Source of the DNA: Lachnospiraceae bacterium
GTDB lineage: Bacteria > Bacillota > Clostridia > Lachnospirales > Lachnospiraceae
Assembly (NCBI GenBank): GCA_024691305.1
Contig: JAILNS010000032.1
Coordinates: 1-64,000, forward strand
Reading direction: 5' to 3'
Length of the DNA: 64,000 nucleotides
The notes under the pieces are model-generated. The model made no database searches and had not been told where the DNA came from. It saw nothing but the letters and a program-made list of their open reading frames with translations. Below are positions 8,020 to 41,297 of this stretch, piece after piece. The number at the start of each line of letters is the position of its first letter. Within the stretch, counting starts at the first letter, position 1. The position numbers were made by a program, and so were the translations under genes.

Positions 8020-9831
8020 ATGGACGTTGTTATAGATCTTCGTTTACTAATCGTTATAGTGGCGCTTTTTTTGGGAATGGTCGCGCTTGTGGTCTGGCTC
8101 ATTATCCGAAACAGACTGAATATGCCTGACTATAGGAAACTTGTGGCCACAACGAAGGAACTCGAAGAAAGCCGTAAAGAACTTGAGAATGCGAGGAATG
8201 CGGCTGAAGAAGCGACCAAGACCGTACATGAACTCATGAATACCGCTTCATGGACTCTTCATATGGACAAAGACGGTCAGATGACCGGCGTTGAGAGCAG
8301 CGCAGAGTTCAGGTATCTTTTAAACGGAAATACCGATATGGATATTCCGGATTATCAATTATGGCTTAATTCTCTTCATCCCGATTATAAGGATCGTATC
8401 ACTGCCAAAATAGATAAAGCGGCTCATGGAAAAGGCATTTATGATGAGGTCTTTTTGTTGCATGACAGAACCGGTACATACAGATGGTACCGTGGAACCG
8501 GAGAACTGGTTCCCGAGGGTGACGGAACGGCATTTCGGGGCATTATACAGGATGTAAACGAAGAAAAGCAAAAAGAAATACTTAATGCCGAGAGGCTTGC
8601 CGCACTCGAAGACCTTGAGAAATCACAGGAAGCACTTAAGGAAGCCCTTGAAGAAGCGCAGCACGCCAATAAGGCCAAGAGTGAGTTCTTAAGTAATATG
8701 TCTCATGATATCCGTACTCCCATGAATGCGGTCATCGGTTTTACTGAACTTGCAATAGAAAACCGCGAGGATCCCGAAGCCGTCAAAGGCTATCTTGAGA
8801 AGATACAGACTTCCGGAAATCATCTGCTGATGCTCATAAACGATATTCTTGACATGAGCAAGATAGAGAGCGGACGCATAAATATAGAATACGCCCGTTG
8901 TGATCTTAAAGAACTTATTGCCTCCCTGGAGAAGATAGTAGACGGAGATGCAAGAAGCCGCAAGGTGAACTTTAAATGTGAGCTTGAGAATATGGCTGAA
9001 AGCGTGGTCTTATGTGACAGGCTAAGGGTAAATCAGATACTTTTAAACTGCATAGGAAACTCGGTTAAATTCACCCCGGAAGGCGGATATGTTGAGTTAA
9101 GGGTTCAGAAACTAAACGGAGAAGATCCCGACCATGCGGATTTTTCTTTTATCATCGCAGATACCGGTATAGGTATGAGTAAAGAATTCCTTGAGAAACT
9201 GTTTGAGCCGTTCGAACGAGAAAGGACTTCTACAATAAGCAGGATCCAGGGCACCGGACTCGGAATGGCCATAACCAGGAATCTGGTCGAGATGATGGGC
9301 GGAACTATTGATGTGGAGAGCCGTGAAGGCGAAGGGACCACATATACGATCACCTTGAATTTTGAACTTGTGCATGAGAGATGTGAGCAGACCGGTAATC
9401 AGGCACAGGATGATATCACGATAGAGGAGATGGCTGCCGGGGTTAAGGGCCTGCATGTATTACTTGTAGACGACAATGGCACAAACAGGCTTGTGGCAAA
9501 AGGCGTATTCAGATCCAGGGGAATAAGTGCCGATGAAGCAACAAACGGAGCCCAGGCGGTTGAGATAATCAAAAATGCGGCCTTCGGTGAATATGATGTA
9601 ATTCTTATGGATGTTCAGATGCCTGTTATGGACGGACTTACCGCCGCAGACAATATCAGGGCATTGGAAGATCCTGAACTTGCGCAGATCCCGATCCTTG
9701 CAATGACCGCAAATGCATTCGCCGAAGACCGGGATGAGTGCCTTGCTCACGGGATGAATGATTATATAGCCAAACCCTACAAACCGGATGAACTTATTCG
9801 GAAATTGTATTTTTGCGTGAAAAACAATTGA
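8020..9831 (+). CDS. Hybrid sensor histidine kinase / response regulator
   Basis: N-terminal TM, coiled coil, PAS-like region, FLSNMSHDIRTPMNAVIGF H-box, HATPase (DTGIGM, GTGLGMAI), C-terminal REC (VDDN, MDVQMPVMDG). Confidence 0.95.
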   Translation: MDVVIDLRLLIVIVALFLGMVALVVWLIIRNRLNMPDYRKLVATTKELEESRKELENARNAAEEATKTVHELMNTASWTLHMDKDGQMTGVESSAEFRYLLNGNTDMDIPDYQLWLNSLHPDYKDRITAKIDKAAHGKGIYDEVFLLHDRTGTYRWYRGTGELVPEGDGTAFRGIIQDVNEEKQKEILNAERLAALEDLEKSQEALKEALEEAQHANKAKSEFLSNMSHDIRTPMNAVIGFTELAIENREDPEAVKGYLEKIQTSGNHLLMLINDILDMSKIESGRINIEYARCDLKELIASLEKIVDGDARSRKVNFKCELENMAESVVLCDRLRVNQILLNCIGNSVKFTPEGGYVELRVQKLNGEDPDHADFSFIIADTGIGMSKEFLEKLFEPFERERTSTISRIQGTGLGMAITRNLVEMMGGTIDVESREGEGTTYTITLNFELVHERCEQTGNQAQDDITIEEMAAGVKGLHVLLVDDNGTNRLVAKGVFRSRGISADEATNGAQAVEIIKNAAFGEYDVILMDVQMPVMDGLTAADNIRALEDPELAQIPILAMTANAFAEDRDECLAHGMNDYIAKPYKPDELIRKLYFCVKNN

Positions 9832-18901: not shown

Positions 18902-18927
18902 AAATGTGAAGATGTATGGGGGACAGT

Positions 18928-21900
18928 ATGGGAGAGTATTTGGAAAAGGATTACAAAAGCACACCTTTTGGTGACAAAACACTGGGGATCGAGGAGCGTA
19001 TCGACTGGCTGATAAGCGAACTTACACTTGATGAAAAACTGCATATGCTGGCTTCGGGTTCCGGCGGCGTTGAAAGACTTGGCATTCCCATGTGCAAGCT
19101 CGGAGGCGAGGCTGCACACGGAGTCGAGGCAAGAAATGATCAAAATGGTATAGGTGAGGCGGATGAAACCACGTCTTTTCCGCAGCCTATCGGAATGAGT
19201 TCATCCTGGGATACAGCACGAATACGGGAAGCAGGCAAAGTTACAGGAAAAGAGGCCAGAGCGGTTTATTCAAAACGTCTCTGGGGCGGTCTGTCCAGAT
19301 GGGCACCTACCATCGATCTGTTAAGGGATCCCAGATGGGGAAGAAATGAGGAAGCTTACGGCGAAGATCCCATGCAGGTTGGAGCAATGTCTTCTGCGTA
19401 TATCAGGGGAATGCAGGGTGATGAACCCGGAAAACTGCTTTGCGCCGCTACTCTTAAGCATTTTTATGCAAACAATACAGAGATCGGACGGGGATGGAAG
19501 AACTCATCCATAAGTCCAAGAAACAAATATGAGCTTTATCTTGAGCCTTTCAGAAGAGCCATTGAGGATGGCAAAGTAGAAGGTGTCATGACTGCCTACA
19601 ACCGTATAAACGGTGTTCAGGGGCTTTTTAACAGTGATGTCAAAAAAATACTGAAAGAAGAGTTTGGTCTTACTCATGCGGTTTCGGACGGCGGAGCTAT
19701 GGAACTGGCCGCATCTTTTTCTCATGTTACGGGAATGAATGCGGAAACTGCAGCCATTTCCGTAAAAGCCGGGGTAGATGCGCTTAGCGGAAAGCCGGAT
19801 CTCGTATATGAAGCGGTACGTGATGCTTATGAAATGGGTCTTTTGGATGAAGAGGATATCGATACAGCCATAAGGAATACATACAGGACCAGATTAAAAC
19901 TTGGTGTATTTGATGAGCACGATCCTGCGCCTCAGGATGCATTAAGCAATCCGGACGTGACAGATCAAAGGTACGATATGATAACCTACGATGATCTGTG
20001 TACCTCCAAAAACGCACAGGTATGTAAGGAACTCAGCGATGCATCCGTTGTACTTCTTAAAAACGATGGAATCCTTCCAAAGAGCATATTAAGTGATACC
20101 GTACTTATCGGTCCTGTCGGTGATAAGTGGTATCAGGACTGGTACGGTGGAAGTGCTCCCCGCAGGGTATCCGTATTTGACGGTTTAAAAGAGTATTCCG
20201 AAAATATGACTTATACAGACGGATGTGATGTCATAAAGCTTAAATGCGGCGATAAGTATTTATGTACCGGAAAAGACGACAGGCTTATGCTTGGTGACGA
20301 GCCGGGCACCTTTGTTCTGGAAGACTGGGGAGAAGGTTCATACACATTAAGAAGTGCAGAAAGCGGAAAGTATATTATTACAAGGCTCACCGAAGATGCC
20401 GAACAGGGAATCGCAACCGCAGAGGAACAAAAAGACACCGGCCTTAAGCCTTTTGGGGAAGTATATGTAAATGCCGGGCAGATATTCAGCTGGTTTGATC
20501 TTGAAGTATTCAGGATAGAACAGATGCCTGATAAGCAGACAGCAGTATTTAAGGACAGATTCGGGAATCCGCTTTGTTATAACCAAGAAGGTCTTATCTG
20601 TTCCGTAAAGGAAAGAATTCTAAATGACAGAGATGTAAAAGACAAAGGCATTTATGCTCCGCTTGTTGTCAGCATGGAAACAGTACAAAACGGGATCGAA
20701 GCGGCCAAAGAAAAAGCAGCAGTTGCCAAAACCGTGATCTTGGCACTCGGGCATCATCCGATGGTAAATGCAAAGGAAGAGGTAGACCGGGCAACGATAG
20801 AGTTTATCCCTTACCAGCAAAAACTGTTTGATGAGATATATAAGGTAAACCGTAATATTATCGTAGTTTTGCTCAGTGATTATCCTTTTTCGATAAATGA
20901 GATAAATGACAAGGCAAGGGCTGTGATCTGGTCTGCAACCGGGTCGGAGTGTATGGGCAATTCCATAGCGGACACACTCACAGGTAAGGTTCACCCCGCA
21001 GGAAGACTCACGCAGACCTGGTTTAAGTCAGATGCGGATCTTCCCGACATAGACGATTACGATATTATTGGGAATGAGCGTACATACAGATATTTTAAGG
21101 GTGACGTGCTCTATCCTTTCGGATACGGACTGGATTATACGGAGCTTTCTTATTCGGATATGAAGGTGGAGATGAGCGAGGGCAGTCCGGATGAAAACCC
21201 TAAAAACCCCGGTGTTGTCCGTAAAAATCCCGGTCAGCCGGTAAATGTCTATGATAGAATACGTGCGGATAAGCGCAGAATATGCGTCAAGCTTAAATTG
21301 ACCAATACGGGTGAATATGTATCCGATGAAGTGGTGCAGATCTATGCTAAGTTCCCTGTAAGCCGGATCAAAAGACCGCTTAAGCAGCTTATAGCATTTG
21401 ACAGAGTAAAGGATATCGCTCCCGGGGAAACCAGAGCGGTTGCATTCGATATACCGGTAAGAGAACTTGCCTGCTATGATGTGATCAGCGAATCGCTTAT
21501 AATAGAGCAGGGAACATATGAGATATGTGCCGGTGCTTCAAGTGAGGATATAAGGCTGAGCCGGACGCTTGAGATAGCCGGAACAAAGCCCGGTCTCAGA
21601 GATATGTGGGTTAAGATCAAGGCCGACCACTACGATGAGCAGTCGGGCACTCAGATAGTGGAAGGGTTGTACGGATATAATGCCCTGATGCCCTGTGGCC
21701 TTAGCGTATATGAACCTTCGCAGGACGGACACATGATCGTGTCATACAGAGACTGTTCGATGTCCGGATGCGAAAAAGAACTTCGTATACACGGGATCGC
21801 ATCCTCTGATGTATATCTTAAGGTATATATTGATGATAAAGAGGCGGGAAGCCTTAAGTTTAATACCCGTGAGTATGAGAAGAATCCTTCCGAAGCCAAA

Positions 21901-22092
21901 AACCGTATGCCAAGAGCCGTTTGCGACGAAGAAGGAAGAAAGGGATCATGGCCGCTTCTCTGGGCCGATATCAGGATACCTCTTGATATGAGTGCGGCAC
22001 TTAAAGATTCGTCTGCTTCTCATACGATACGTATCGAGGCAGACGGCCCGTTTAAATATGACTGGTTTATGTGTATTGGGGAAAGAGAATGA
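18928..22092 (+). CDS. Glycoside hydrolase family 3 enzyme with an internal beta-trefoil/fascin-like insert
   Basis: GH3 N-terminal (GGEAAHGVEARN, RDPRWGRNEEAYGEDP, VSDGGAMELA) and C-terminal (YPFGYGLDYTELSYS, fibronectin III-like) motifs; insert approx 20221-20637. Confidence 0.9.
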   Translation: MGEYLEKDYKSTPFGDKTLGIEERIDWLISELTLDEKLHMLASGSGGVERLGIPMCKLGGEAAHGVEARNDQNGIGEADETTSFPQPIGMSSSWDTARIREAGKVTGKEARAVYSKRLWGGLSRWAPTIDLLRDPRWGRNEEAYGEDPMQVGAMSSAYIRGMQGDEPGKLLCAATLKHFYANNTEIGRGWKNSSISPRNKYELYLEPFRRAIEDGKVEGVMTAYNRINGVQGLFNSDVKKILKEEFGLTHAVSDGGAMELAASFSHVTGMNAETAAISVKAGVDALSGKPDLVYEAVRDAYEMGLLDEEDIDTAIRNTYRTRLKLGVFDEHDPAPQDALSNPDVTDQRYDMITYDDLCTSKNAQVCKELSDASVVLLKNDGILPKSILSDTVLIGPVGDKWYQDWYGGSAPRRVSVFDGLKEYSENMTYTDGCDVIKLKCGDKYLCTGKDDRLMLGDEPGTFVLEDWGEGSYTLRSAESGKYIITRLTEDAEQGIATAEEQKDTGLKPFGEVYVNAGQIFSWFDLEVFRIEQMPDKQTAVFKDRFGNPLCYNQEGLICSVKERILNDRDVKDKGIYAPLVVSMETVQNGIEAAKEKAAVAKTVILALGHHPMVNAKEEVDRATIEFIPYQQKLFDEIYKVNRNIIVVLLSDYPFSINEINDKARAVIWSATGSECMGNSIADTLTGKVHPAGRLTQTWFKSDADLPDIDDYDIIGNERTYRYFKGDVLYPFGYGLDYTELSYSDMKVEMSEGSPDENPKNPGVVRKNPGQPVNVYDRIRADKRRICVKLKLTNTGEYVSDEVVQIYAKFPVSRIKRPLKQLIAFDRVKDIAPGETRAVAFDIPVRELACYDVISESLIIEQGTYEICAGASSEDIRLSRTLEIAGTKPGLRDMWVKIKADHYDEQSGTQIVEGLYGYNALMPCGLSVYEPSQDGHMIVSYRDCSMSGCEKELRIHGIASSDVYLKVYIDDKEAGSLKFNTREYEKNPSEAKNRMPRAVCDEEGRKGSWPLLWADIRIPLDMSAALKDSSASHTIRIEADGPFKYDWFMCIGERE

Positions 22093-23876
22093 ATACTGAA
22101 AAAATAAGTCTTATATACCCGAAGATCAAAATAAGGAATGAGTCCGGTGAAGTCATAAGGGTGACTGAACCCGGGTACAAAACATTAAACGAAGAGACTA
22201 TCCATAATCTGGGACTCGATGCGATAGTGCAATCCCTTTCGCCCATAGAGGCTGAAAGAGCATTTATAATGCGTGTTTTGTCTCATACCACACTTGACCC
22301 TTATGTTGCGGGATACAGAGCGGATGTATTCGAGGATATCCTTAATTTCCCGTCTCTTAGGGAAGACATGATGAAGATCCTTGATAAGATCAATTTCCTT
22401 AAGAGTTACGGAACATTCAAAAAAGAATATGAGGAATCGGCTTCCGCATTTGAACTGATCCATAGGCTTGAAGAGATAAATGACTACATAATATGTGTTG
22501 AAGCCATACATAACTGTCTTATCGGAACCGATATAAAGTCCGAGGGTCTTAACAATTTAAGGGAATATGTTGATAAGGTTTATAACGACAATGCTTTTTC
22601 CGAACTTAAGGAAGATATAAAGTCGCTCAAAGGTTCAACCTCTGAATTAAAGAGCATAACTCTCGGGATAAACTTAAACGAAAGGTTCGAAGCGGAGAGT
22701 ATCGGAGTCATATCGATAAATAATAAGAAGTTTAGTAAGTCAGGCGTCATAGGTAATTTCAGTGATGCCATCACTGCAAGAAAGGGCGGTGTGAAAGACG
22801 GAAACGAATGGGACGAGGATTACAGATTTCAGCCTTTTAAGGCGTCCGCAGTTGATATTGCAGCTTCGGTCGAAAGTCTCGGAAGGTTTAAGATAGCTTC
22901 ATCTTCTCCTATAGGTCTTCTGACCATGGCAGCGATACCACAGGCTGACTCGACGGTTGATGTGACCAGATACATGGACAGGATCGTAAATCACATGCTG
23001 TATATCACGGTCAAAAAACTAAAGTCCGTGCTTAATAAGTATGTGAACGTCACGATCACCGATATAACCGACCTGATCCCCGAATTTGTATATTATATCC
23101 GTTTCGCCGAATATGTCGAAAAGATGAAGGCAGCAGGCTATAAATTAAAAAAGGCCCGTGTTGTAGCGGGTGATGATGTGAAGTCGTCCGAAGCTGATAA
23201 GAAGGATCGTATTTATACAAGGGCACAGGGTGTATATAATATTCTTCTTGCCCAGTCTCATATCGCAGACAGGATCGATATCGTAAAAAACGATCTGGAT
23301 TTTGATACAGAACATCTTGTATATGTCCTGACCGGTGCAAACCGCGGGGGAAAGACCACGATCACAGTGGCTATAGGGCAGCTTTTTGTACTGGCACAGG
23401 GCGGGATATACATACCCGGTGATTATTTTGAATATACACCTGTCGACTGTATTTATACTCATTTTCCCGCCGATGAAGATAAGACGATGGATCTGGGACG
23501 TCTCGGCGAAGAGTGCAAGAGATTTAAGGAGCTGTATTCAGATGCGGGACCGAACAGTCTGATCCTTCTTAATGAAACCTTCTCCACCACATCATTTGAA
23601 GAGGGATATTATATAGCCAGAGATGCGATCCGTGCTCTTTTAAAAAAGGAAACACGTACGATATACAACACCCATATGCATAAGCTTGCGCGTGATATAG
23701 ATGAGATAAATAACGAAGCTTCGAAGGAAAATGAGGCAAAGGCGCAATCTCTTATCGTAAAAACAGACGGTGGAGAGCGTTCTTTTAAGATCGCCGTCGC
23801 ACCGCCCGAAGGAATGTCGTATGCGGAGGATATCGCCAAAAAATACGGTGTTACCTATGAAATGCTGACCGAGTAA
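22089..23876 (+). CDS. MutS-family ATPase lacking the N-terminal mismatch-recognition domain
   Basis: TGANRGGKTTITVAIGQLFVLAQGGIYIPGD (MutS-like Walker A), SLILLNETFSTTSFEEGYYIARDAI; ATG overlaps the GH3 stop. Confidence 0.85.
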   Translation: MNTEKISLIYPKIKIRNESGEVIRVTEPGYKTLNEETIHNLGLDAIVQSLSPIEAERAFIMRVLSHTTLDPYVAGYRADVFEDILNFPSLREDMMKILDKINFLKSYGTFKKEYEESASAFELIHRLEEINDYIICVEAIHNCLIGTDIKSEGLNNLREYVDKVYNDNAFSELKEDIKSLKGSTSELKSITLGINLNERFEAESIGVISINNKKFSKSGVIGNFSDAITARKGGVKDGNEWDEDYRFQPFKASAVDIAASVESLGRFKIASSSPIGLLTMAAIPQADSTVDVTRYMDRIVNHMLYITVKKLKSVLNKYVNVTITDITDLIPEFVYYIRFAEYVEKMKAAGYKLKKARVVAGDDVKSSEADKKDRIYTRAQGVYNILLAQSHIADRIDIVKNDLDFDTEHLVYVLTGANRGGKTTITVAIGQLFVLAQGGIYIPGDYFEYTPVDCIYTHFPADEDKTMDLGRLGEECKRFKELYSDAGPNSLILLNETFSTTSFEEGYYIARDAIRALLKKETRTIYNTHMHKLARDIDEINNEASKENEAKAQSLIVKTDGGERSFKIAVAPPEGMSYAEDIAKKYGVTYEMLTE

Positions 23877-28672: not shown

Positions 28673-29716
28673 ATGGCAAAAACCGTAAAACTTGCCGATA
28701 TCGCTGAACGTGTGGGCGTCAGTATAGTTACCGTTTCCAAGGCGCTTTCCGGACAGAAGGGTGTCAGTGAAACTATGCGTGTGCGTATTCAGGCGATAGC
28801 GGATGAAATGGGTTACAAACAGCCCAGTGCTTACCGCAGGGAACAGGAAGAGGCCCGCAAGATCCGTGGCTATAATCTGGGAGTTCTCATCGCAGATTAT
28901 TATCTTGGCAAATACGAGAGTTTCTATTCACAGATGTACCAGCAGTTTGCAACACGCGCCGGGAGTAAAGGCTGCTTTTGCCTGCTCGAACTTGTGAGCC
29001 GTGAGCAGGAGAACGAGGTCAGGGTTCCGATGATGATCGCAGACAGAAGAGTCGATGGTATTGTGGTCATAGGTAAGCTCTCGACAGCATATCTCAAGAT
29101 GCTTAATGAATCCGGAATACCACTCGTGGGTCTTGACTTCTATACCAGTGATGACTCTATGGACAGCGTTATCAGTGACAGTTATTTCGGCGGCTACAGG
29201 ATGACGAATTATCTTATAGAAAAAGGCCATACCAAGATCGCCTATGTCGGAACGATCGGTGCAACCACATCTATTACAGACAGGTATATGGGATACAGAA
29301 AAGCACTGAACGAGAGCGGTCTGGATTTTAGAAAAGACTGGGTGATAGACGACAGACTTAAGAATAATGAGGGCGCAGATACACAGGGATATATAAATCT
29401 GCCCGATGAGATGCCTACCGCATTTATGTGTAACTCTGATCAGACCGCAGGTTTTCTTATAGATAAACTTGAGAAGAACGGATACCAGGTTCCTCAGGAT
29501 ATTTCCGTGGCTGCTTATGATAATTTTCTTCCCCCCGGGATATGCGATGTACGTATCACTACATATGAGGTTGATATGAAGGAAATGGCCAAAAGAGCCG
29601 TTTCCATGATCACACATAAGATCGCGGGAGAAAGCTATAAGACCGGTACCTATATAGTAGGGGGTCATATAGTGGAAAAGGACAGCGTTCGCGAGATCAG
29701 TTACAGACATTTTTAA
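28673..29716 (+). CDS. LacI family transcriptional regulator
   Basis: KLADIAERVGVSIVTVSKALSGQKGVSETMRVRI HTH plus a periplasmic-binding-like domain. Confidence 0.95.
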   Translation: MAKTVKLADIAERVGVSIVTVSKALSGQKGVSETMRVRIQAIADEMGYKQPSAYRREQEEARKIRGYNLGVLIADYYLGKYESFYSQMYQQFATRAGSKGCFCLLELVSREQENEVRVPMMIADRRVDGIVVIGKLSTAYLKMLNESGIPLVGLDFYTSDDSMDSVISDSYFGGYRMTNYLIEKGHTKIAYVGTIGATTSITDRYMGYRKALNESGLDFRKDWVIDDRLKNNEGADTQGYINLPDEMPTAFMCNSDQTAGFLIDKLEKNGYQVPQDISVAAYDNFLPPGICDVRITTYEVDMKEMAKRAVSMITHKIAGESYKTGTYIVGGHIVEKDSVREISYRHF

Positions 29717-30009: not shown

Positions 30010-31497
30010 ATGAAAGCAAAAAAAGTTATGGCGCTTATGCTTAGCGCAACAATGCTTCTTGGTCTTACCGCATGTGGTGAAACTGCAGAGGCACCCGCTG
30101 CTGAACCGGCTGCAGAAGAAACTACCGAAGCAGCAGCAGAAGAGACTACAGAGGCAGCAGATACAGCTGCAGCTGAGACTACCGAAGCAGCAACAGAGGA
30201 GACCGCAGATGCAACAGCAGATGCAGGCGCACTCAGCTACACAACTCTTAATCTTGATGATTACACAGATTTTACGGCAACGATCAAGTACCTTCATCAC
30301 AAGACAGACCGTGAGGAAGACGGAACAATGGCAGCTATGATCGCTGAGTTCAACAAAGAGTTCCCTAACATCACAGTTACAACAGAAGGTGTTACCGATT
30401 ATGCAGAGGATTCACTTCTTCGTCTTTCTTCACAGGATGCAAGCTGGGGCGATATAATGCATATCCCCGCAGTTGATAAGAGTGATCTTGCAACATATTT
30501 CATGCCTCTTGATACTCTTGACAATCTTTCACAGCAGCTTAACTTCGTAAGCTCATGGTCATATGACGGACAGTGCTATGGTATTCCTTACATGGCTAAC
30601 GCACAGGGCGTTCTTTACAATAAGAAAGTCTTCAGCGATGCAGGTATCACAGAGCTTCCCAAGACTCCCGAAGAGTTCATAGCTGACCTTCAGGCGATCA
30701 AGGACAATACTGATGCTATTCCGCTTTACACAAACTATGCAGCAGGCTGGACCATGGGTGCATGGGATGCATATGTAGGAATCGTTTCAAACGGTGATGA
30801 TACATACATGAACCAGAAACTTGCTCATACAGCAGAGCCTTTCTCAGATCCCGGCGACGGAACAGGTGCTTACAATCTTTACAAGATCCTCTATGATGCG
30901 GTTGCTAACGGCCTTATCGAGGACGACTACACAACTACCGACTGGGAAGGCTGCAAGGGTATGCTTAACCGCGGCGAGATCGGAACAATGGTACTTGGTT
31001 CATGGGCATACGCTCAGATGCAGGAAGCAGGAGATACTCCTGAAGATGTAGGATATATGCCTTTCCCGATGTCAGTAGGCGGAACACAGTATGTATCTGC
31101 AGGTGGTGACTACAATTACGGTATCAACGTATATTCATCCGATGAAAATAAGACAGCAGCTCTTATCTTCGTTAAATGGATGACCGAGAAGTCCAACTGG
31201 TGCTACAACGAAGGTGGTTACACTGTAGTTAAGGATGGCAAGAACCCTGATATGTACGCAGCATTTGACGGATGTACAGTTCTTTCCGATCAGGATGCAC
31301 TTGATGGCGAAGCAACACTTCTTAACGATATGAACTCAGAGTCAGAGCTTTCTATCAACGCAGGTGGAAATGACAAGGTTCAGCGTATCGTTGAAGCAGC
31401 AGCTACCGGCTCAGAGACATTTGATGATATCATGGCAGACTGGAATACAGCTTGGCAGGATGCTCAGGAAGAGCTTGGCGTAGAAGTACTGTACTAA
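30010..31497 (+). CDS. ABC transporter extracellular solute-binding lipoprotein (sugar, family 1)
   Basis: Signal peptide with lipobox LGLTAC, Ala/Glu/Thr-rich linker, SBP fold motifs (YGIPYMANAQGVLYNKKVF). Confidence 0.95.
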   Translation: MKAKKVMALMLSATMLLGLTACGETAEAPAAEPAAEETTEAAAEETTEAADTAAAETTEAATEETADATADAGALSYTTLNLDDYTDFTATIKYLHHKTDREEDGTMAAMIAEFNKEFPNITVTTEGVTDYAEDSLLRLSSQDASWGDIMHIPAVDKSDLATYFMPLDTLDNLSQQLNFVSSWSYDGQCYGIPYMANAQGVLYNKKVFSDAGITELPKTPEEFIADLQAIKDNTDAIPLYTNYAAGWTMGAWDAYVGIVSNGDDTYMNQKLAHTAEPFSDPGDGTGAYNLYKILYDAVANGLIEDDYTTTDWEGCKGMLNRGEIGTMVLGSWAYAQMQEAGDTPEDVGYMPFPMSVGGTQYVSAGGDYNYGINVYSSDENKTAALIFVKWMTEKSNWCYNEGGYTVVKDGKNPDMYAAFDGCTVLSDQDALDGEATLLNDMNSESELSINAGGNDKVQRIVEAAATGSETFDDIMADWNTAWQDAQEELGVEVLY

Positions 31498-31553
31498 TTC
31501 ACAGGAATTACTCAGAACTTAATGATCGAAATATTTAAGTAGTAATGAGACGG

Positions 31554-31586
31554 GCCGGGGCGAGCTATCTCTCCCCGGCTTGTTCT
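31554..31586 (+). terminator. Stem-loop between SBP and permease genes (attenuator / 3' stabiliser)
   Basis: GCCGGGGcGAG-ctat-CTCtCCCCGGC followed by TTGTTCT. Confidence 0.7.
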
Positions 31587-31647
31587 ATCTAAAAACAAGG
31601 GACGAAAATTACTCCCGGTATTCAGGCCACAAGATTGGGGTGATCAA

Positions 31648-32655
31648 ATGGCGAACACTAAGACAGTTACAAAACCAAAAAGAACTTTCACGGAATGGCT
31701 TAGAAGCCGCGACGGCCAAAAAGCATTGGTCATGCTGGCGTTTATGGTCCTTCCGCTGCTTCTGCTTTTCGTATTTACATATCTTCCTTTCGGCGAGATG
31801 TTCGGTTTTTCTTTTTACAAGATGAAATATATCGGTGAAAGAAAGTTTGTGGGCCTTAAGAATTACGAGAAAGTCTTCTCAAGAGATGACTGCTTCGGAG
31901 CATTAAAACTCTCGCTTTACTATATGCTTGGATCGGTGGTTCAGCTTGCTATAGCTCTTTACCTTGCAACGATCCTAAGTTTTAAGGTAAGAGGCGGTGA
32001 TCTTTTTAAGGGCCTTATGTTTTTCCCGTTTCTCATAAACGGTATTGCCATAGGTTTTATATTCAAGTTTTTCTATACCAGAGGATTTGTTTTTGATACT
32101 GTGCTTCAGTGGTGCGGATTCCAGCTTGATAATCTGCCATACTGGTTGAGAGATCAGAGGATCAACAACTTCTCGCTGGTTGGAACGAGTGTATGGCGAT
32201 ACTTTGGACAGAATATGGTTCTGTTTATCGGTGCCATCATGTCGGTCGATGCTGAATTATATGAAGCAGCTACACTTGACGGGGCAAACAGATTCCAGCA
32301 GTTTAAGTATATTATCCTGCCCAGCATCAAGACCATCGTTACCTTAAATGTGATATTGTCGATAACCGGTTCACTAAGTGCTTTTGAACCTCCCTACGTT
32401 ATCACCGACGGTGCCAACGGCACAGGGACATATTTTGTTGTAATGCACCAGATAGCGCATGTACAGCAAAAAGTCGGTCTTGCTTCCGCAATGGCTATAG
32501 TGCTTTTGGTCATTATTTTCGTGGTGACCATCCTTCAGAAACTCTTCTTCAAATATGTATTTAAAAATGCAGAAGATGAGGATCCCAATGCAGCAAGAAA
32601 AAGGGATAAGAAAATAGCCCGTATTGCAGCAAAGAGGGGAGGTGCAAGAGCATGA
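31648..32655 (+). CDS. Carbohydrate ABC transporter permease (MalF-type)
   Basis: Multi-TM, YEAATLDGANRFQQFKYIILPSI EAA loop. Confidence 0.95.
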   Translation: MANTKTVTKPKRTFTEWLRSRDGQKALVMLAFMVLPLLLLFVFTYLPFGEMFGFSFYKMKYIGERKFVGLKNYEKVFSRDDCFGALKLSLYYMLGSVVQLAIALYLATILSFKVRGGDLFKGLMFFPFLINGIAIGFIFKFFYTRGFVFDTVLQWCGFQLDNLPYWLRDQRINNFSLVGTSVWRYFGQNMVLFIGAIMSVDAELYEAATLDGANRFQQFKYIILPSIKTIVTLNVILSITGSLSAFEPPYVITDGANGTGTYFVVMHQIAHVQQKVGLASAMAIVLLVIIFVVTILQKLFFKYVFKNAEDEDPNAARKRDKKIARIAAKRGGARA

Positions 32656-33506
32656 AGACAAATACACAAGCTAAGGCAGGTAAGGTGATCTGGCTTATCG
32701 TAGAGTATATATCGTTGATATTCTTCAGCTTTGTTGCGGTTATTCCCGTAGTAAGCTGCGTGATAACGGCTTTTAAAACTGATACCGAGTATCAGACGAC
32801 CAATGTAATGACACTTCCCGAAAGTTGGCTGAATTTTGAGAACTTTATTACGGCGTTTCAAAAGGCAAACATGGGCAGAGGCTTTATGAATTCGGCGATA
32901 ATTCTTGTGTCTGTGCTGCTTTTGTCTACCTTTATAGGAACTCAGCTGGCATATGTGCTTAACCGGTTTAAATTCTTCGGAAACGGGATAATCAGAAGTC
33001 TCTTCTTGTTTGCTTCACAGTTACCCGGAGTTGCCATGCAGGTTGCGTTATATGAGATCATGTATAAGATGCACATGATAAATTCCTTAATTGGGTATAT
33101 CATTCTGATGTGTGGAACTGATATAATATCAATATATATTTACATCCAATTTTTCGAAAATATCGATTATTCGCTCGATGAATCGGCAATAGTGGACGGT
33201 GCGAATTATTTCACGATATTTTATAGGATATTGCTTCCGCTACTTAAACCTGCCATCGTTACATCATGTATACTCAAGGGTGTAGGAACCTATAACGAAT
33301 ACTACTCAGCAAATCTTTACTTACAGGATAAGACCACATTAAATACTGTAGCAACTTCTTTATATACTTTCGTCGGTCCATTGGGCAGCAAATACAACCT
33401 GATCTGTGCCGGCGTTATAATCTCGCTTTTGCCTGCGCTCATAGTGTTCATAACCTGTCAGAAACAGATCTACAGCGGACTGACACAGGGTGCTGTCAAA
33501 GGATGA
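32652..33506 (+). CDS. Carbohydrate ABC transporter permease (MalG-type)
   Basis: Multi-TM, LDESAIVDGANYFTIFYRILLPLLKPA EAA loop. Confidence 0.95.
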   Translation: MKTNTQAKAGKVIWLIVEYISLIFFSFVAVIPVVSCVITAFKTDTEYQTTNVMTLPESWLNFENFITAFQKANMGRGFMNSAIILVSVLLLSTFIGTQLAYVLNRFKFFGNGIIRSLFLFASQLPGVAMQVALYEIMYKMHMINSLIGYIILMCGTDIISIYIYIQFFENIDYSLDESAIVDGANYFTIFYRILLPLLKPAIVTSCILKGVGTYNEYYSANLYLQDKTTLNTVATSLYTFVGPLGSKYNLICAGVIISLLPALIVFITCQKQIYSGLTQGAVKG

Positions 33507-33527: not shown

Positions 33528-34697
33528 ATGTTTAAATACAAAGACGAGATCGAAAATCATCTTATTTATGACATCATTCCTTTTTGGAAAAAATTAAGGG
33601 ATGATGAGTATGGCGGCTATTACGGCTATGTCAGTTATGATCTGGATATCGACGAAAAAGCCGTAAAGGGCTGTATATTAAACAGTCGTATCACGTGGTT
33701 TTTTGCCAATGCATATGATGTGACCGCTGACGAGACACTGCTTGCGGAAGCACGTCACGGATACGAATTCTTAAGGGATCATTGTTATGACCGTGAAAAT
33801 GGTGGAGTATTCTGGTCTCTTAACTATGACGGAACCCCTGCGGATACGACCAAACATACATATAACCAGGCGTTTGCGATATATGCGCTAAGTTCTTACT
33901 ATGCGGTCAGTCATGACGCTGAAGCCTTAAACCTTGCGTATGATCTTTTTGATACGATCGAAGAAAAATGCCGTGACGATGAAGGATATCTTGAGGCATC
34001 CACTCGTGATTTTAAGCCGGAATCCAACGAGAAACTCTCCGAGAACGGGGTAATGGCTCAAAGGACCATGAATACCCTGCTTCATGTGTTTGAAGGATAT
34101 ACCGAACTTTACAGGGTCGGTCATAATGAAAAGGTTTCGGAAAGGATCAAATGGATACTCGATACCTTTGCCGATAAGGTTTATAACCCTAAGCTTCACA
34201 GACAGGAGGTGTTCTTTGATGCACATTACAACTCACTCATAGATCTTCACAGCTACGGACATGATATCGAGACCGCATGGCTTATAGACAGGGGGGTTGA
34301 GGTGCTTGGAGATCCTGCTTATGAAGCAAAGCTGACACCCATAACCAAAGATCTGACCGCAAACATATATAAAGTTGCTTTTGACGGACACAGCCTGTCT
34401 AACGAATGCGAAAGAGGCGTTGTCGATACCAAGCGTGTCTGGTGGGTTCAGGCGGAAACGCTCATCGGTTTCTTAAACGGATATATCAAAGATAAGTCTC
34501 ATAAGGAATTTCTTGAAGGTGCCGAATCCGTATGGGAATTCATAAGAGACAATGTTATCGATCCAAGATGCAGGGAATGGTACATGCATGTGGATCCCGA
34601 GGGCAATCCCGAGAAGGGCAGACCCATAGTTGAGCCCTGGAAGTGTCCTTATCACAACGGACGCATGTGTTTTGAAGTTATGAAAAGAGAATTCTGA
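33528..34697 (+). CDS. AGE-family epimerase, probable cello/mannobiose 2-epimerase
   Basis: AGE (alpha/alpha)6 barrel motifs ([56 protein letters not shown]); followed by GH130 genes. Confidence 0.9.
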
Positions 34698-34741: not shown

Positions 34742-35908
34742 ATGGTACACGAAAAGTATTATGAACTTCTTAAGGAACAGGAGAAGTTAATAACCAGAAA
34801 AAACAAAAAGAGTGATTTCTACAACGGTATCTATGACAGGTATGAATATCCGGTGCTTACCAGAGACCATATTCCGCTTACCTGGACATATGATATCAAC
34901 AAGGATACCAATCCTTATTTTATGGAAAGACTCGGTATCAATGCTGTTTTGAATTCAGGTGCCATATATCTGGATGGAAAGTATTATCTGGTAGCCAGGA
35001 TAGAAGGCAATGACCGAAAATCTTTCTTTGGCGTAGCGGTAAGTGATAACGGTATCGATAATTTCAGGTTTACCGACAGACCAATCCTATTGGAGGATAC
35101 CTGCCCCGAAGAGACCAATGTTTACGATATGCGTCTGACCAAGCATGAAGACGGATATATTTACGGAGTATTCTGTTCGGAAAGCAAGGACACTTCCGTA
35201 AATGACCTGTCCGCCGCAGTTGCCGCTGCAGGTATCGTAAGGACCAAGGATATGGTTAACTGGGAGAGGCTCGACAATCTGACTACCTTAAGGTCACCCC
35301 AGCAGAGGAACGTGCTTCTTCATCCTGAATTTGTCGACGGAAAATATGCTTTTTATACCAGACCCATGGATGATTTCATAGAGACCGGCAGCGGCGGCGG
35401 AATAGGATTCGGCTTAAGCGAGTCCATCGAGCATGCCGTGGTTGATGAAGAAAGAATGACCAGCCTTCGTAAGTATCACACGATCACCGAGGCAAAGAAC
35501 GGTGCAGGTGCTACTCCGATAAAGACAGACAAGGGCTGGATACATATTGCACACGGTGTAAGAAATACGGCAGCAGGCTTGCGTTACGTGATCTATGCTT
35601 TTGCCACGGCTCTTGACGATCCCGGACGTGTGATCGCAGAACCCGGCGGACTTCTTATAGGTCCCAGAGGCGCAGAGCGTGTAGGCGATGTAAGCAACGT
35701 CGTATTTATAAACGGCGCGATAGTCAATGAAAAAGACGAAGTATTCATGTATTACGCATCAAGCGATACGAGAATGCATGTAGCGACCACAACGATCGAT
35801 AAGCTGATAGATTATGTGTTCAATACCCCCGAGGATCCCGGAAGGAGTGTTGAATGTGTCGCTCAAAGAATTGGCCTTATAGATAAGAATCTTGAATTGC
35901 TTAAGTAA
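34742..35908 (+). CDS. GH130 family glycoside phosphorylase, GH130_1-like (4-O-beta-D-mannosyl-D-glucose phosphorylase candidate)
   Basis: [71 protein letters not shown]. Confidence 0.88.
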
Positions 35909-35940: not shown

Positions 35941-36960
35941 ATGAAGTATAAAATGATCGCACCTGCCGTACCCAATATGCCCTGGCAGGACAGACCCGAA
36001 GGAATCAAGGGAGCACCTATCTGGAGATATGATGCAAATCCCGTAGTTGACAGAAACCCTATTGAGGGAGTTGCGCGTATATTCAACTCAGCGGTAATGC
36101 CTTATGAAGGCAAGTTCATCGGTGTATTCCGCGGCGAGCAGACAAACGGAATTCCGTATGTATATCTTGGAAGGAGTGATGATGCTCTTCACTGGACATT
36201 CGATCAGGAGAAGGTTCCTTTTGTGGACGAAGAGGGTAAGCCCTTTATGCCTGTATATGCTTATGATCCCAGACTTGTTAAGGTTGAAGATACCTATTAT
36301 ATCATCTGGTGTGGAGATTTCTACGGAGCAGCCATAGGTATAGCTAAGACCAAGGATTTTAAGACCTTTACACGTATCGAAAATCCTTTCATACCTTTTA
36401 ACCGTAATGCGGTACTTTTCCCTCGTAAGATAAACGGCAATTTCGTAATGTTAAGCCGTCCTTCCGATTCGGGACATACACCTTTTGGAGACATCTTCTT
36501 AAGTGAAAGCCCTGATATGACTTACTGGGGCAAGCATCGTCACGTAATGGGACGCGGAAGTGAATGGTGGGAGTCGGTTAAGATCGGCGGAGGAGCAGCA
36601 CCCATCGAGACTTCAGAGGGATGGCTTCTGTTCTATCACGGTGTAAGTTCAACCTGCAACGGATTCGTATATTCGATCGGAGGAGCTATCCTTGATATCG
36701 ATCAGCCTTCGGTTGTTAAGTATCGTTGCGAGAACTTCATCCTCACTCCCGAAGCATCTTATGAAGAGAGAGGATTTGTTCCCAATGTTGTGTTCCCCTG
36801 CGCTACCATTCATGATTCCGAGACCAACAGGATCGCACTCTACTACGGAGCTGCTGACAGCGTAGTCGGACTGGCATTTTGTAACATGGATGACATCATT
36901 GATTATATCAAGGATCACAGTGTAGTAACCGAATCTGATACAGAGATCGGAAGAAGATAA
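35941..36960 (+). CDS. GH130 family glycoside phosphorylase, GH130_2-like (beta-1,4-mannooligosaccharide phosphorylase candidate)
   Basis: IARIFNSAVMPYEGKFIGVFRGE-type motif, YAYDPRLVKVEDTYYIIWCGD, WLLFYHGV. Confidence 0.9.
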   Translation: MKYKMIAPAVPNMPWQDRPEGIKGAPIWRYDANPVVDRNPIEGVARIFNSAVMPYEGKFIGVFRGEQTNGIPYVYLGRSDDALHWTFDQEKVPFVDEEGKPFMPVYAYDPRLVKVEDTYYIIWCGDFYGAAIGIAKTKDFKTFTRIENPFIPFNRNAVLFPRKINGNFVMLSRPSDSGHTPFGDIFLSESPDMTYWGKHRHVMGRGSEWWESVKIGGGAAPIETSEGWLLFYHGVSSTCNGFVYSIGGAILDIDQPSVVKYRCENFILTPEASYEERGFVPNVVFPCATIHDSETNRIALYYGAADSVVGLAFCNMDDIIDYIKDHSVVTESDTEIGRR

Positions 36961-37127: not shown

Positions 37128-38312
37128 ATGCAAAACGAATATAAGATAGATTACAATAAGGGACTTGTAGAAACCGGAAGTAGCAAACGCACAGGTTATA
37201 TAAAAAAGCTGTTTGACAGAGCAAAAGCCGGTGAAGATATCACGGTAGGTTTCCTGGGTGGAAGCATCACTCAGGGGTCGGTTGCGACCGATGATACACT
37301 GTGCTATGCATACAGGGTGTATGACTGGTTTGTCAAAACCTTTCCGAAGTCACACATAACATATGTGAACGCAGGAATAGGTGCGACGGATTCGGAGTAT
37401 GCGGCTGCGAGGCTTTCAGAACATCTTTTGTCTAAAAAGCCTGATTTTGTTCTCATGGAATTTTCCGTAAATGATGAGTGTAACGATCATTATCTTGAGA
37501 CCTATGAGGGAGCTGTAAGGCAGATACTTAATTCTAAACCGGACATCGCATTTATGCTTATGAACAATGTCTTTTACAATGACGGAGCAAGTGCCGAGCG
37601 CATCCACAGGGTTGTTGCAAGACATTATGGACTTCCTTCCGTAAGCATGAGGACCACGATATTTGATGCGATCCTTGCGGGTAATTTTGAAAAAGCTAAG
37701 ATAACTCCGGATGACCTGCATCCAAACGATGACGGACACGGGCTTGTAGCAGGTGTTATCACGACATATCTAGAGAGTGTGCTTTCCGGGAAAACCGATG
37801 GGGCACAGGCCTTGGATAGTGAAATGACAGATGGATCACAGTCCCCGGATGATAAAGGGACAGGGCTTCCAGCACCGATTTCACTTAACCGCTATGAAAG
37901 AAGCGTTAAATACGATAACAGAAATTCCGAACCGGTACTTAAGAAAATGTCCGGATTTACCAGGGATGAAACTCCCCGCACGGCAGTAAGAGACTGCTTT
38001 AAGGAGGGCTTTATCGCTACCGAAAAAGGCAGTTTTGCGGAATATGAAGTGACAGGTTCATGCATCGCGGTACAGTTTAGGCGCACTATAAATCTTCCCG
38101 CACCGGTAGCCAAAGTTACGGTTGACGGAAATGAAGATACTGCAGTCATACTTGATGCGAACTTTGATGAGACATGGGGCGATAAGCTTGTTCTCACCGA
38201 TATTTATATGAGCGAGAATGCAGCACTGCATAAGATAAGACTTGAGATCATAGAGACTCATCCTGATGATAAGGGAGATTTTTATCTTGCCGGGGTTATC
38301 GTGTCAGGATAA
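37128..38312 (+). CDS. SGNH/GDSL hydrolase with C-terminal beta-sandwich-like domain (CE17-like mannan acetylesterase candidate)
   Basis: Catalytic blocks GGSITQG, GIGATDS, FSVND, DDLHPNDDGH; located in the mannooligosaccharide locus. Confidence 0.8.
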   Translation: MQNEYKIDYNKGLVETGSSKRTGYIKKLFDRAKAGEDITVGFLGGSITQGSVATDDTLCYAYRVYDWFVKTFPKSHITYVNAGIGATDSEYAAARLSEHLLSKKPDFVLMEFSVNDECNDHYLETYEGAVRQILNSKPDIAFMLMNNVFYNDGASAERIHRVVARHYGLPSVSMRTTIFDAILAGNFEKAKITPDDLHPNDDGHGLVAGVITTYLESVLSGKTDGAQALDSEMTDGSQSPDDKGTGLPAPISLNRYERSVKYDNRNSEPVLKKMSGFTRDETPRTAVRDCFKEGFIATEKGSFAEYEVTGSCIAVQFRRTINLPAPVAKVTVDGNEDTAVILDANFDETWGDKLVLTDIYMSENAALHKIRLEIIETHPDDKGDFYLAGVIVSG

Positions 38313-38332: not shown

Positions 38333-38962
38333 ATGTCCAAAGATCGTAACAAACAGCACTTTACGGATATAAGAAGGCTCACCGATAATCCTTTTTTGAA
38401 CCTGTATGAAATGGATGCTCTTGCTTCAAGCGGGGCTCCGTTTCATTATTATTTTGCTAGCAGGAGAAAAGACGAAAATATCCGTATACGCACCGGAAAA
38501 CTCGACCCGGAAGGTGTTTTGGTATATGCGATAGATGAAAACGATCCAAACAGGATACTTATGGTCTATCAGTACCGTTATCCGGTAGACAGAAATATGT
38601 ACGAACTTCCCGCAGGCCTTATAGAAGCGGGAGAAACTCCGGAAGAGGCCGGCGCCAGGGAGATCTTAGAAGAAACCGGAATGATCTTTACGCCGGTACA
38701 TGTGGAAGGTGCCGTACTAACGAGACCTTATATGCTCGCACAGGGTATATCCGATGAAACGGGTGTCAACGTATTCGGTACCGTAAAAGGAGAATTATCC
38801 ACATCATTTCAGGAAGATACCGAATACATAAAGCCTATGTGGGCCGATAAAAAAGAAGTAAAAAGGATCCTTTCAAGTGAAGTCACCTCGATGAGGGCTC
38901 AGCTTTTACTGAGCATGTTCTTACATTCCGATGAAAACGATCCTTTCGCATTTTTGAGATAA
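38333..38962 (+). CDS. NUDIX hydrolase (ADP-ribose pyrophosphatase-like)
   Basis: NUDIX box GLIEAGETPEEAGAREILEETGM. Confidence 0.93.
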   Translation: MSKDRNKQHFTDIRRLTDNPFLNLYEMDALASSGAPFHYYFASRRKDENIRIRTGKLDPEGVLVYAIDENDPNRILMVYQYRYPVDRNMYELPAGLIEAGETPEEAGAREILEETGMIFTPVHVEGAVLTRPYMLAQGISDETGVNVFGTVKGELSTSFQEDTEYIKPMWADKKEVKRILSSEVTSMRAQLLLSMFLHSDENDPFAFLR

Positions 38963-38987: not shown

Positions 38988-41297
38988 ATGTTCAGAGAAG
39001 ATTTTGTATGGGGAGTTGCAACCAGCGGATATCAGGTAGAAGGACATACGCCGGATGACGGATCGGGGGTGTGTATGTGGGATGTTTTCTGCGATGAAGG
39101 CAGAGTCCCCCAAAATGCCAATACACGGCTTACCGTGGATGAAATGCACAGATATCCACAGGATTTTGAACTCATGCGTCTCATGGGTGTGAAAAATTAT
39201 CGTTTTTCACTGAACTGGTCGAGGATATTACCGGAAGGAACAGGCAGAGTAAACGAAAAAGGAATACAGTTCTATCGTGAGATGATCTCATGCATGCTGG
39301 ATAACGGTATAACTCCTTATATAACGCTGTATCATTGGGAATTGCCCGAAGCCCTTAACTTACGGGGCGGTTGGATGAACCGGGAGATAGTTGAATGGTT
39401 TGGTGAATATGCGAAAGTAGTTGCCGAGAATCTCTCCGATCTGTGTGACCATTTCATAACTCTCAATGAACCCCAGTGTTCCACCATGCTCGGATATTCT
39501 CTAGGCGAGCATGCACCGGGTCTTAAGGTAAACCGCAAGGAAACCTTTATCGTTGCGCATAATCTTCTGATGGCTCATGGTCAGGCTGTCATAAACTTAA
39601 GAAAGTATTCATGCCGTCCGGTTCAGATCGGGTTTTCACCCACATGCGGTGTTGCGATACCTGCGACCGACACCCCCGAAGATATCGAGGCTGCCCGCGA
39701 GGTATATTTCGGATTTTACGGAAGTGATGAAAGATGGGCTTGGAATGTATCCTGGTTTGTGGATCCCGTTATATTCGGAAGATATCCCGAGGAAGGTCTT
39801 AAAAAATTCAAAGATTATCTTCCAGAGTTTAAGGAAGAGGATATGAAACTTATAAACCAGCCTCTTGATTTCCTTGGACAAAATATTTACAACGGATATC
39901 CCGTGCACCGCGCCGAGGACGGATCCATCGAATTCCCTGAGATGGAGTGGGGATATTCCCACAATGACTGTGACTGGCCGACCAACAGTGAATCTTTGTA
40001 CTGGGGTGCAAAGTTTACGGCGCAGAGGTATCCGATCCCGTTATATATAACCGAAAACGGGATAGCGACCCACGACAGGGTAAGTGCGGACGGAAGGGTA
40101 CATGATGCGGACCGTATAGCCTTTTTGGATGATTATATAGGAGTTCTTCAACAGGTTGCCGATGAAGGAGCAGATATCAGAGGGTATTTCCTGTGGACCT
40201 TCCTTGATAATTTCGAGTGGGCGGAAGGTTATCGTAAGAGATTCGGTACTATATATGTGGACTTTCAAACTCAGCAAAGGATTGCCAAAGATTCGGCATA
40301 TTGGTATAAAGAAGTTATGGAGACAAACGGAGCAAACTTATCTGTAAATTCACATCCTTCGGGATTGATATTCATAAAACCGTCATTTTCGCATACGATC
40401 TGGGGCGGAAGCACCTTACGTGACGAATTCGGATATGACGAACCCGGGGATGATATAGGGGAATGCTGGGGAATATCGGCACATCCTCAGGGAGATGACG
40501 AAGTATTAAACGGTTTCTATGAAGGGATACGTCTCAGTGAACTCTGGGATAAGAAAAAAGAGATATTCGGGAATGCGGAAGGTGACAGGTTCCCTCTTCT
40601 TACAAAGATAATCTCAGCAAAAGAAGACCTGAGCATACAGGTTCATCCCAATGATGAGTATGCCGGAATCCATGAAAACGGATCTTTGGGTAAGATGGAA
40701 TGCTGGTATATCCTGGATGCCGAGCCCGGAAGCAAGCTCGTTGTAGGACATAATGCCAAAACCAAAGAAGAACTGGCTGATATGATTGATAACGGCAGGT
40801 GGAATGATCTGATCCGTCATGTGGATATCAAACCCGGAGATTTTATACAGATAGATCCGGGAACAGTTCATGCGATATGCGGTGGTGTAACACTCCTTGA
40901 AACACAGCAAAGCTCGGATATAACCTACAGACTCTATGATTATGACAGACTTTCAAACGGTAAACCCCGTCCCCTCCATCTGTCACAGTCTAAGGATGTT
41001 ATTATGGTTCCTTCTCCCGAAGCATCCTCCATGGTGGTACATGATGACTCGGATGAAGATATAATTCGCCTCATCAGATGCAGATATTACGAGGTATATC
41101 GCATAAGATGTAACGGTGACTTAAAGGCGGAATTTGACAGACCGTTCATGCTCATGAGTGTAGTCGAAGGCTCGGGAGTAATTGATTCCCATCCCGTCAA
41201 AAAGGGTGATCATTTCATAGTTCCTGCGGGCTATGGCAAGATAGGAATGCTCGGAGATATGAAGATCATCGCATCGTGTCTGCCGGGGGAGGATTGA
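38988..41297 (+). CDS. Fusion protein: GH1 beta-glycosidase (N-terminal ~445 aa) plus type I mannose-6-phosphate isomerase (C-terminal ~320 aa)
   Basis: GH1: DFVWGVATSGYQVEG, ITLNEPQC (acid/base), PLYITENGIA (nucleophile). ManA: FIKPSFSHTIWGGSTLRDEFGYD, GECWGISAHPQGDDEVLNG, SIQVHPNDEYA, GTVHAICGGVTLLETQQSSDITYRLYDYDR. One uninterrupted frame. Confidence 0.95.
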   Translation: MFREDFVWGVATSGYQVEGHTPDDGSGVCMWDVFCDEGRVPQNANTRLTVDEMHRYPQDFELMRLMGVKNYRFSLNWSRILPEGTGRVNEKGIQFYREMISCMLDNGITPYITLYHWELPEALNLRGGWMNREIVEWFGEYAKVVAENLSDLCDHFITLNEPQCSTMLGYSLGEHAPGLKVNRKETFIVAHNLLMAHGQAVINLRKYSCRPVQIGFSPTCGVAIPATDTPEDIEAAREVYFGFYGSDERWAWNVSWFVDPVIFGRYPEEGLKKFKDYLPEFKEEDMKLINQPLDFLGQNIYNGYPVHRAEDGSIEFPEMEWGYSHNDCDWPTNSESLYWGAKFTAQRYPIPLYITENGIATHDRVSADGRVHDADRIAFLDDYIGVLQQVADEGADIRGYFLWTFLDNFEWAEGYRKRFGTIYVDFQTQQRIAKDSAYWYKEVMETNGANLSVNSHPSGLIFIKPSFSHTIWGGSTLRDEFGYDEPGDDIGECWGISAHPQGDDEVLNGFYEGIRLSELWDKKKEIFGNAEGDRFPLLTKIISAKEDLSIQVHPNDEYAGIHENGSLGKMECWYILDAEPGSKLVVGHNAKTKEELADMIDNGRWNDLIRHVDIKPGDFIQIDPGTVHAICGGVTLLETQQSSDITYRLYDYDRLSNGKPRPLHLSQSKDVIMVPSPEASSMVVHDDSDEDIIRLIRCRYYEVYRIRCNGDLKAEFDRPFMLMSVVEGSGVIDSHPVKKGDHFIVPAGYGKIGMLGDMKIIASCLPGED

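Follow-up and report, generated by a model that had tools for sequence, protein, structure and literature searches.

A GH1-mannose-6-phosphate isomerase fusion in a Lachnospiraceae beta-mannan utilisation locus: a genuine and seemingly old architecture with probably separable activities

The window (the whole 64,000-nucleotide stretch of DNA analysed, from contig JAILNS010000032.1 of a Lachnospiraceae bacterium) contains a beta-mannan utilisation set, with GH130_1 and GH130_2 phosphorylases, an epimerase, an importer of the ABC rather than the PTS type and a deacetylase (Table 1). The initial annotation had described a manno-oligosaccharide phosphorolysis locus, and one for beta-1,4-manno-oligosaccharides agrees with the matches of both GH130 proteins, the epimerase and the CE17-like esterase to solved relatives. 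The solved structure closest to the esterase, 6hfz, is one we take to be the R. intestinalis esterase RiCEX. A two-domain fusion protein follows a NUDIX hydrolase gene, and the next gene encodes a ManC-like protein. No phosphomannomutase was found within the window; two PGM/PMM genes are located on other contigs of the genome, and two ROK-family genes occur elsewhere in the genome. Some 10 kb ahead of the operon, a gene for a 1058-aa GH3 protein (18916-22092) is overlapped at its end by the gene for a MutS domain V protein (22071-23876).

Table 1 Coordinates of the locus genes and of the fusion protein elements within the window
Feature	Position	Strand	Evidence
LacI-type regulator	28673..29716	+	N-terminal sequence; heads operons of congeners
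ABC sugar importer: solute-binding protein and two permeases	30010..33506	+	Pfam on solute-binding protein; permeases from position and conserved synteny
Cellobiose/mannobiose 2-epimerase	33528..34697	+	3vw5, 424 bits; nearest are solved cellobiose 2-epimerases
GH130_1 mannosylglucose phosphorylase	34742..35908	+	5ay9, 630 bits
GH130_2 manno-oligosaccharide phosphorylase	35941..36960	+	TM1225 480 bits, 5ayd 397 bits
GDSL esterase, CE17-like	37128..38312	+	6hfz closest solved, 387 bits
NUDIX hydrolase, directly upstream of fusion	38333..38962	+	Pfam
GH1-PMI fusion ORF, 769 aa	38988..41297	+	ORF reading, Pfam, NCBIfam
GH1 beta-glucosidase domain, residues 2-448	38991..40331	+	Pfam 452 bits, TIGR03356, Foldseek Ks5A7
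E161, GH1 acid/base (TLNEP)	39468..39470	+	kept in 50/50 fused proteins
E356, GH1 nucleophile (ITENG)	40053..40055	+	kept in 50/50 fused proteins
Interdomain linker, residues 449-459 (11 residues)	40332..40364	+	sequence; modelled pLDDT about 82-94
Type I mannose-6-phosphate isomerase (PMI) domain, residues 460-764	40365..41279	+	Pfam, NCBIfam, solved relatives

The fusion is encoded by an uninterrupted ORF (38988-41297, forward strand), whose frame, read on the window, contains 0 internal stops and is preceded by a clear Shine-Dalgarno sequence (GGAGGAAATATG). Pfam Glyco_hydro_1 covers residues 2-448 (profile positions 5-452/453, 452 bits), while PMI_typeI_cat (PF20511) and MPI_cupin (PF21621) match residues 463-560 and 695-764 respectively, and neither a stop nor an ATG was found in the linker. 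Solved relatives span both halves, the beta-glucosidase Ks5A7 aligning with residues 2-456 and Bacillus subtilis ManA (1qwr) with residues 458-762. An AlphaFold2 model based on an alignment of 44 fused sequences has a mean pLDDT of 92 and a pTM of 0.80. The earlier proposal of one ORF carrying a full GH1 and a full type I ManA domain is confirmed by the Pfam and NCBIfam domain matches and the lack of an internal stop. Pfam places Glyco_hydro_1 and PMI_typeI_cat/MPI_cupin on the one protein, and TLNEP (E161), ITENG (E356) and the linker (about 449-459) are found where they had been placed. The fusion is both the sole GH1 and the sole type I PMI found in the 2.66-Mb genome (93% complete).

The initial annotation did not recognise this pairing as an established architecture; it had, however, already been published for R. 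intestinalis (PMC6385246) and R. hominis (PMC9784577), and the window fusion is a further example of a GH1-PMI pairing described in Roseburia. RiGH1 of R. intestinalis L1-82 (ROSINTL182_05469/70) was reported as a bifunctional GH1 and PMI protein (La Rosa et al. 2019, Nat Commun, PMC6385246). It comprises 768 aa as compared with 769 aa here, with the same order of an N-terminal GH1 and a C-terminal PMI, but is spread over two locus tags, and the sequence joining these contains ambiguities, whereas the window contains one uninterrupted ORF. Its locus likewise serves beta-mannan utilisation and encodes GH130_1, GH130_2 and an epimerase, together with two acetyl esterases; the genes preceding the window fusion represent the pathway set out in that paper. 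The C-terminal part (RiGH1_D2) interconverts Man-6-P and Fru-6-P and has been placed in the pathway (PMC6385246). RhGH1-M6P of R. hominis A2-183 was annotated as a bifunctional GH1 and mannose 6-phosphate isomerase (2022, PMC9784577). By that annotation it has the same two domains within a manno-oligosaccharide locus, and it lies outside the proteins characterised in that paper; the R. hominis locus contains a PMM and a GH36, neither of which was found among the window genes scanned. The likeness of the window fusion to these two proteins is one of published descriptions rather than of sequence identity, and no further characterisation of the fusion was found in the literature beyond these two species. 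Fusions 60-61% identical to that of the window occur at three loci whose records bear the name uncultured Roseburia sp. (L052, L061 and L122). Two Pseudobutyrivibrio fusions (L059 and L064) have the same domains, 58-59% identity over residues 1-764 and a similar operon order, although in Pseudobutyrivibrio sp. ACV-2 (L064) a phosphomannomutase/phosphoglucomutase gene is directly downstream, where the window has the ManC-like gene.

A single ORF spanning essentially the whole query was present in 16 of 397 same-family genomes sampled (including that of the window), with the fusion split across contig ends in one further genome. The other whole-query ORFs of this sample are 53-61% identical to the window protein; taken over about 50 distinct proteins with this architecture, end-to-end identity ranges from 53 to 63%. 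A GTDB scan located the fusion in many Lachnospiraceae records, isolates included (Pseudobutyrivibrio xylanivorans DSM 14809, L059, and Pseudobutyrivibrio sp. ACV-2), and end-to-end homologues occur in the near-closed genomes G286 and G627. It was seen only in Lachnospiraceae, being absent outside the family among 344 genomes sampled across the order. A script identified 56 fused ORFs among the first 125 loci, 52 of them distinct, and 50 near-full-length proteins were used to assess residue conservation. That a sequencing or assembly error joined two genes, a concern raised by the initial annotation, has next to no probability: no stop lies between the domains, and more than 50 ORFs are homologous end to end, in isolates and near-closed genomes. 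Indeed, full-length homologues in many independent assemblies rule out an assembly artefact. A GH130 or epimerase gene was present in the available flank of 31 of 47 fused loci (near-duplicate records included); the remaining 16 flanks contain neither, so the link to mannan may not extend to every fused locus.

The PMI half passes the cut-off of the NCBIfam ManA model TIGR00218 (204.1 bits versus 116.2). Residues Q551, H553, E571, H628, R648 and R654 are invariant in the 50 distinct fused proteins; in keeping with type I PMIs in general, we take Q551, H553, E571 and H628 to form the metal site and R654 to belong to the active site. The nearest solved isomerase, B. subtilis ManA (1qwr), is also a type I PMI, but consists of a single domain, in contrast to the GH1-linked PMI of the window.

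The GH1 half exceeds the cut-off of the NCBIfam GH1 beta-glucosidase model TIGR03356 (487.2 bits versus 478.5). In addition to the two catalytic glutamates, H116, W117, Y301, W403, E410 and W411 are invariant in the 50 distinct near-full-length fused proteins, and Q16 is invariant in the 44-sequence alignment; the sugar-site residues (H116, E410, W411 and Q16) are thus kept across the fused proteins. The FEWxxGY motif, found in GH1 enzymes acting on non-phosphorylated sugars, is also retained. Both halves look like working enzymes, because their catalytic residues are invariant across the fused proteins. The nearest solved GH1 is Ks5A7 (9l0q), a single-domain protein without a PMI that is about 48% identical to the GH1 half, and the first half of the model superposes on it with a Foldseek TM-score of 0.96 when scaled to the Ks5A7 chain length. 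Ks5A7 cleaves pNP-beta-glucoside, pNP-beta-fucoside and cello-oligosaccharides, while pNP-beta-mannoside is not cleaved (PMC4468940). The GH1 half is most likely an intact retaining beta-glucosidase, with its substrate suggested by family and context; the literature found reports no GH1 activity for any member of the GH1-PMI fusion. A different specificity appears unlikely, be it that of a beta-mannosidase or of a 6-phospho-beta-glycosidase handing sugar-6-phosphates to the PMI. The mannan locus is consistent with such a reading, the GH1 family includes both activities, and a 6-phospho product would account for the pairing with a PMI. However, the GH1 half passes the beta-glucosidase cut-off and misses all 6-phospho-beta-glycosidase models by far (best 296.7 bits versus a cut-off of 610, NCBIfam), which led us to reject the latter identity. 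The retained FEWxxGY and the ABC importer in place of a PTS also argue against it, and the inability of Ks5A7 to cleave pNP-beta-mannoside speaks against a beta-mannosidase.

The fused proteins are not monophyletic in the PMI tree. Standalone PMIs branch from within them at several points, and constraining the fused PMIs to one clade was rejected (p-AU 6e-78). None of the six congeneric genomes contains a GH1, nor was a GH1 remnant found when searched for. All six keep the operon with a standalone PMI directly after the NUDIX gene, the most complete stretches running LacI, importer, epimerase, GH130 pair, CE17-like esterase, NUDIX, PMI, ManC and MFS. The NUDIX gene of the congeners separates the CE17-like esterase gene from that for the PMI, and its product is 76-78% identical to the window protein (38333-38962) where called. 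The PMIs of the congeners and the window make up a starred clade, positioned among fused relatives with support of 87-93. Both halves of the window protein group with fused relatives, L050 featuring in both trees; in the GH1 tree the window is placed with L050 (support 91, unstarred). That the congeners lost the GH1 seems a better reading than that the window lineage gained it separately. Capture of a GH1 by the window lineage alone is not favoured, given that both halves group with fused relatives and the congener PMIs nest among fused proteins, although a separate gain is still conceivable since the support in the GH1 tree is only 91 and unstarred.

In a genome from another genus (G596, L178), a scar of the GH1 C-terminal end is located at approximately 8900-8990, flanked by the genes for a GDSL esterase and an unfused PMI. 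At the protein level, none of 5000 shuffles scored as high; the comparison with the GH1 C-terminal end at the DNA level was not significant, nor was that with the GH1 N-terminal end (p 0.78). Loss of the other half is seen in L039:1150-2916 (reverse strand) and L082:7914-9824, where an intact-looking GH1 is followed at the C-terminal end by what is left of a PMI after deletion of its catalytic core. The GH1 glutamates and sugar-site residues are retained in both, the only change being N160S in one of them. We read these sequences as indicating that the fusion is old in Lachnospiraceae and has been undone many times. The repeated loss of either half suggests that the two activities are separable.

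A GH1 half that is catalytically dead in vivo, acting as a fold or scaffold for the PMI, is quite improbable. The congeners do manage without a GH1, and the published RiGH1_D1 construct, spanning residues 1-246, showed no activity towards G4, M4, M5, M6P, G6P and F6P, its role being termed "unclear" by the authors (PMC6385246). However, the glutamates and sugar-site residues are present in all 50 fused proteins and in L039 and L082, and the published limits of 1-246 and 247-768 split the GH1 barrel in half. By alignment with the window protein, given that a GH1 needs about 448 residues and taking the 768-aa protein as colinear, the 1-246 construct would keep the acid/base but lose the nucleophile (E356 in window numbering) and half of the barrel. 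The negative result would therefore be expected, and uninformative on the full domain.

Other in-frame fusions of the same parts were observed. PMIs that are 51-58% identical to that of the window, with the PMI residues intact, occur in L143-L146. In L146:7603-9693 (reverse strand) a CE17-like GDSL esterase is joined to the PMI (697 aa, halves matching 6hfz and 1qwr), and in L143:8797-11265 (forward strand) the PMI is joined to a GH5 (823 aa, nearest to the beta-1,3-1,4-glucanase 4x0v) and adjoins an epimerase gene. The PMI of L144:1558-3384 is joined to a PHP domain (with a close relative in L163), and that of L145:8200-10017 (reverse strand) to a DUF7402-like domain, a weak match below cut-off. 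A more distant PMI-ROK kinase fusion is present in L094:9323-11197, L097:9347-11200 and similar loci, directly 3' of a standalone GH1 that it often overlaps, which makes for a parallel grouping of GH1, PMI and kinase. In L021:1471-3861 (reverse strand), ManC (GMP) is joined to a more distant type I PMI (797 aa). The GH1 is itself found in frame with a CE2 carbohydrate esterase in L086:7956-10412, L087:7977-10418 and L040 (814-819 aa); these GH1s are 55-59% identical to, and nested inside, those of the PMI fusion. One could view the PMI as a recurrent covalent hub of Lachnospiraceae mannan loci, its partners in different species spanning GH1, CE17-like, GH5, PHP and DUF7402 or, for distant PMIs, ROK and ManC. 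On this view, a physical link between the processing of glycans and the provision of Fru-6-P would itself be under selection, for example for building a cytoplasmic mannan-degrading complex; we regard this as very doubtful.

The initial annotation had suggested that the fusion may tether hydrolysis to entry into glycolysis, a proposal that drew little support. A functional tether, by which the two steps would be channelled or co-regulated, is consistent with retention of the fusion in many genera, with a short linker that is confidently modelled (pLDDT about 82-94) and with the correlated distances of the two halves (Mantel r 0.72, 0 of 2000 permutations as high). However, r drops to 0.23 when divergent pairs are considered, and vertical descent alone yields a correlation. 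Glucose, the product of a beta-glucosidase, is not a PMI substrate, either half has been repeatedly lost, and congeneric species operate this operon with a standalone PMI and without a GH1. A tether is hence a poor prospect. The losses of either half and the alternative partners of the PMI point instead to co-expressed, separable activities with no obligatory tether, and the covalent link is probably a convenience rather than a means of channelling.

We therefore favour, with a probability of roughly 0.7, a cytoplasmic bifunctional enzyme of the beta-mannan utilisation locus with separable activities, sharing the RiGH1/RhGH1-M6P architecture. In the proposed route, imported oligosaccharides would be deacetylated and phosphorolysed by the GH130 enzymes to Man-1-P, which a mutase would pass on to the PMI. 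The C-terminal half would catalyse the last step, Man-6-P to Fru-6-P, by analogy with the activity of the R. intestinalis protein. The N-terminal GH1 would most likely strip non-reducing-end glucose both from imported glucomanno-oligosaccharides and from disaccharides of the cellobiose type, and this glucose removal would let the phosphorylases proceed. The covalent join would ensure 1:1 co-expression.

The fusion is thus settled as a genuine, old and family-wide architecture, and not an artefact. Beyond the Roseburia papers, the analysis adds the issue of the half-domain construct, the repeated losses of either half and the other fusion partners of the PMI. An apparently functionless domain of a known gut mannan degrader is probably an ordinary beta-glucosidase, and the repeated half losses offer a small natural test of whether fusing the enzymes of a catabolic operon has any importance other than co-expression.
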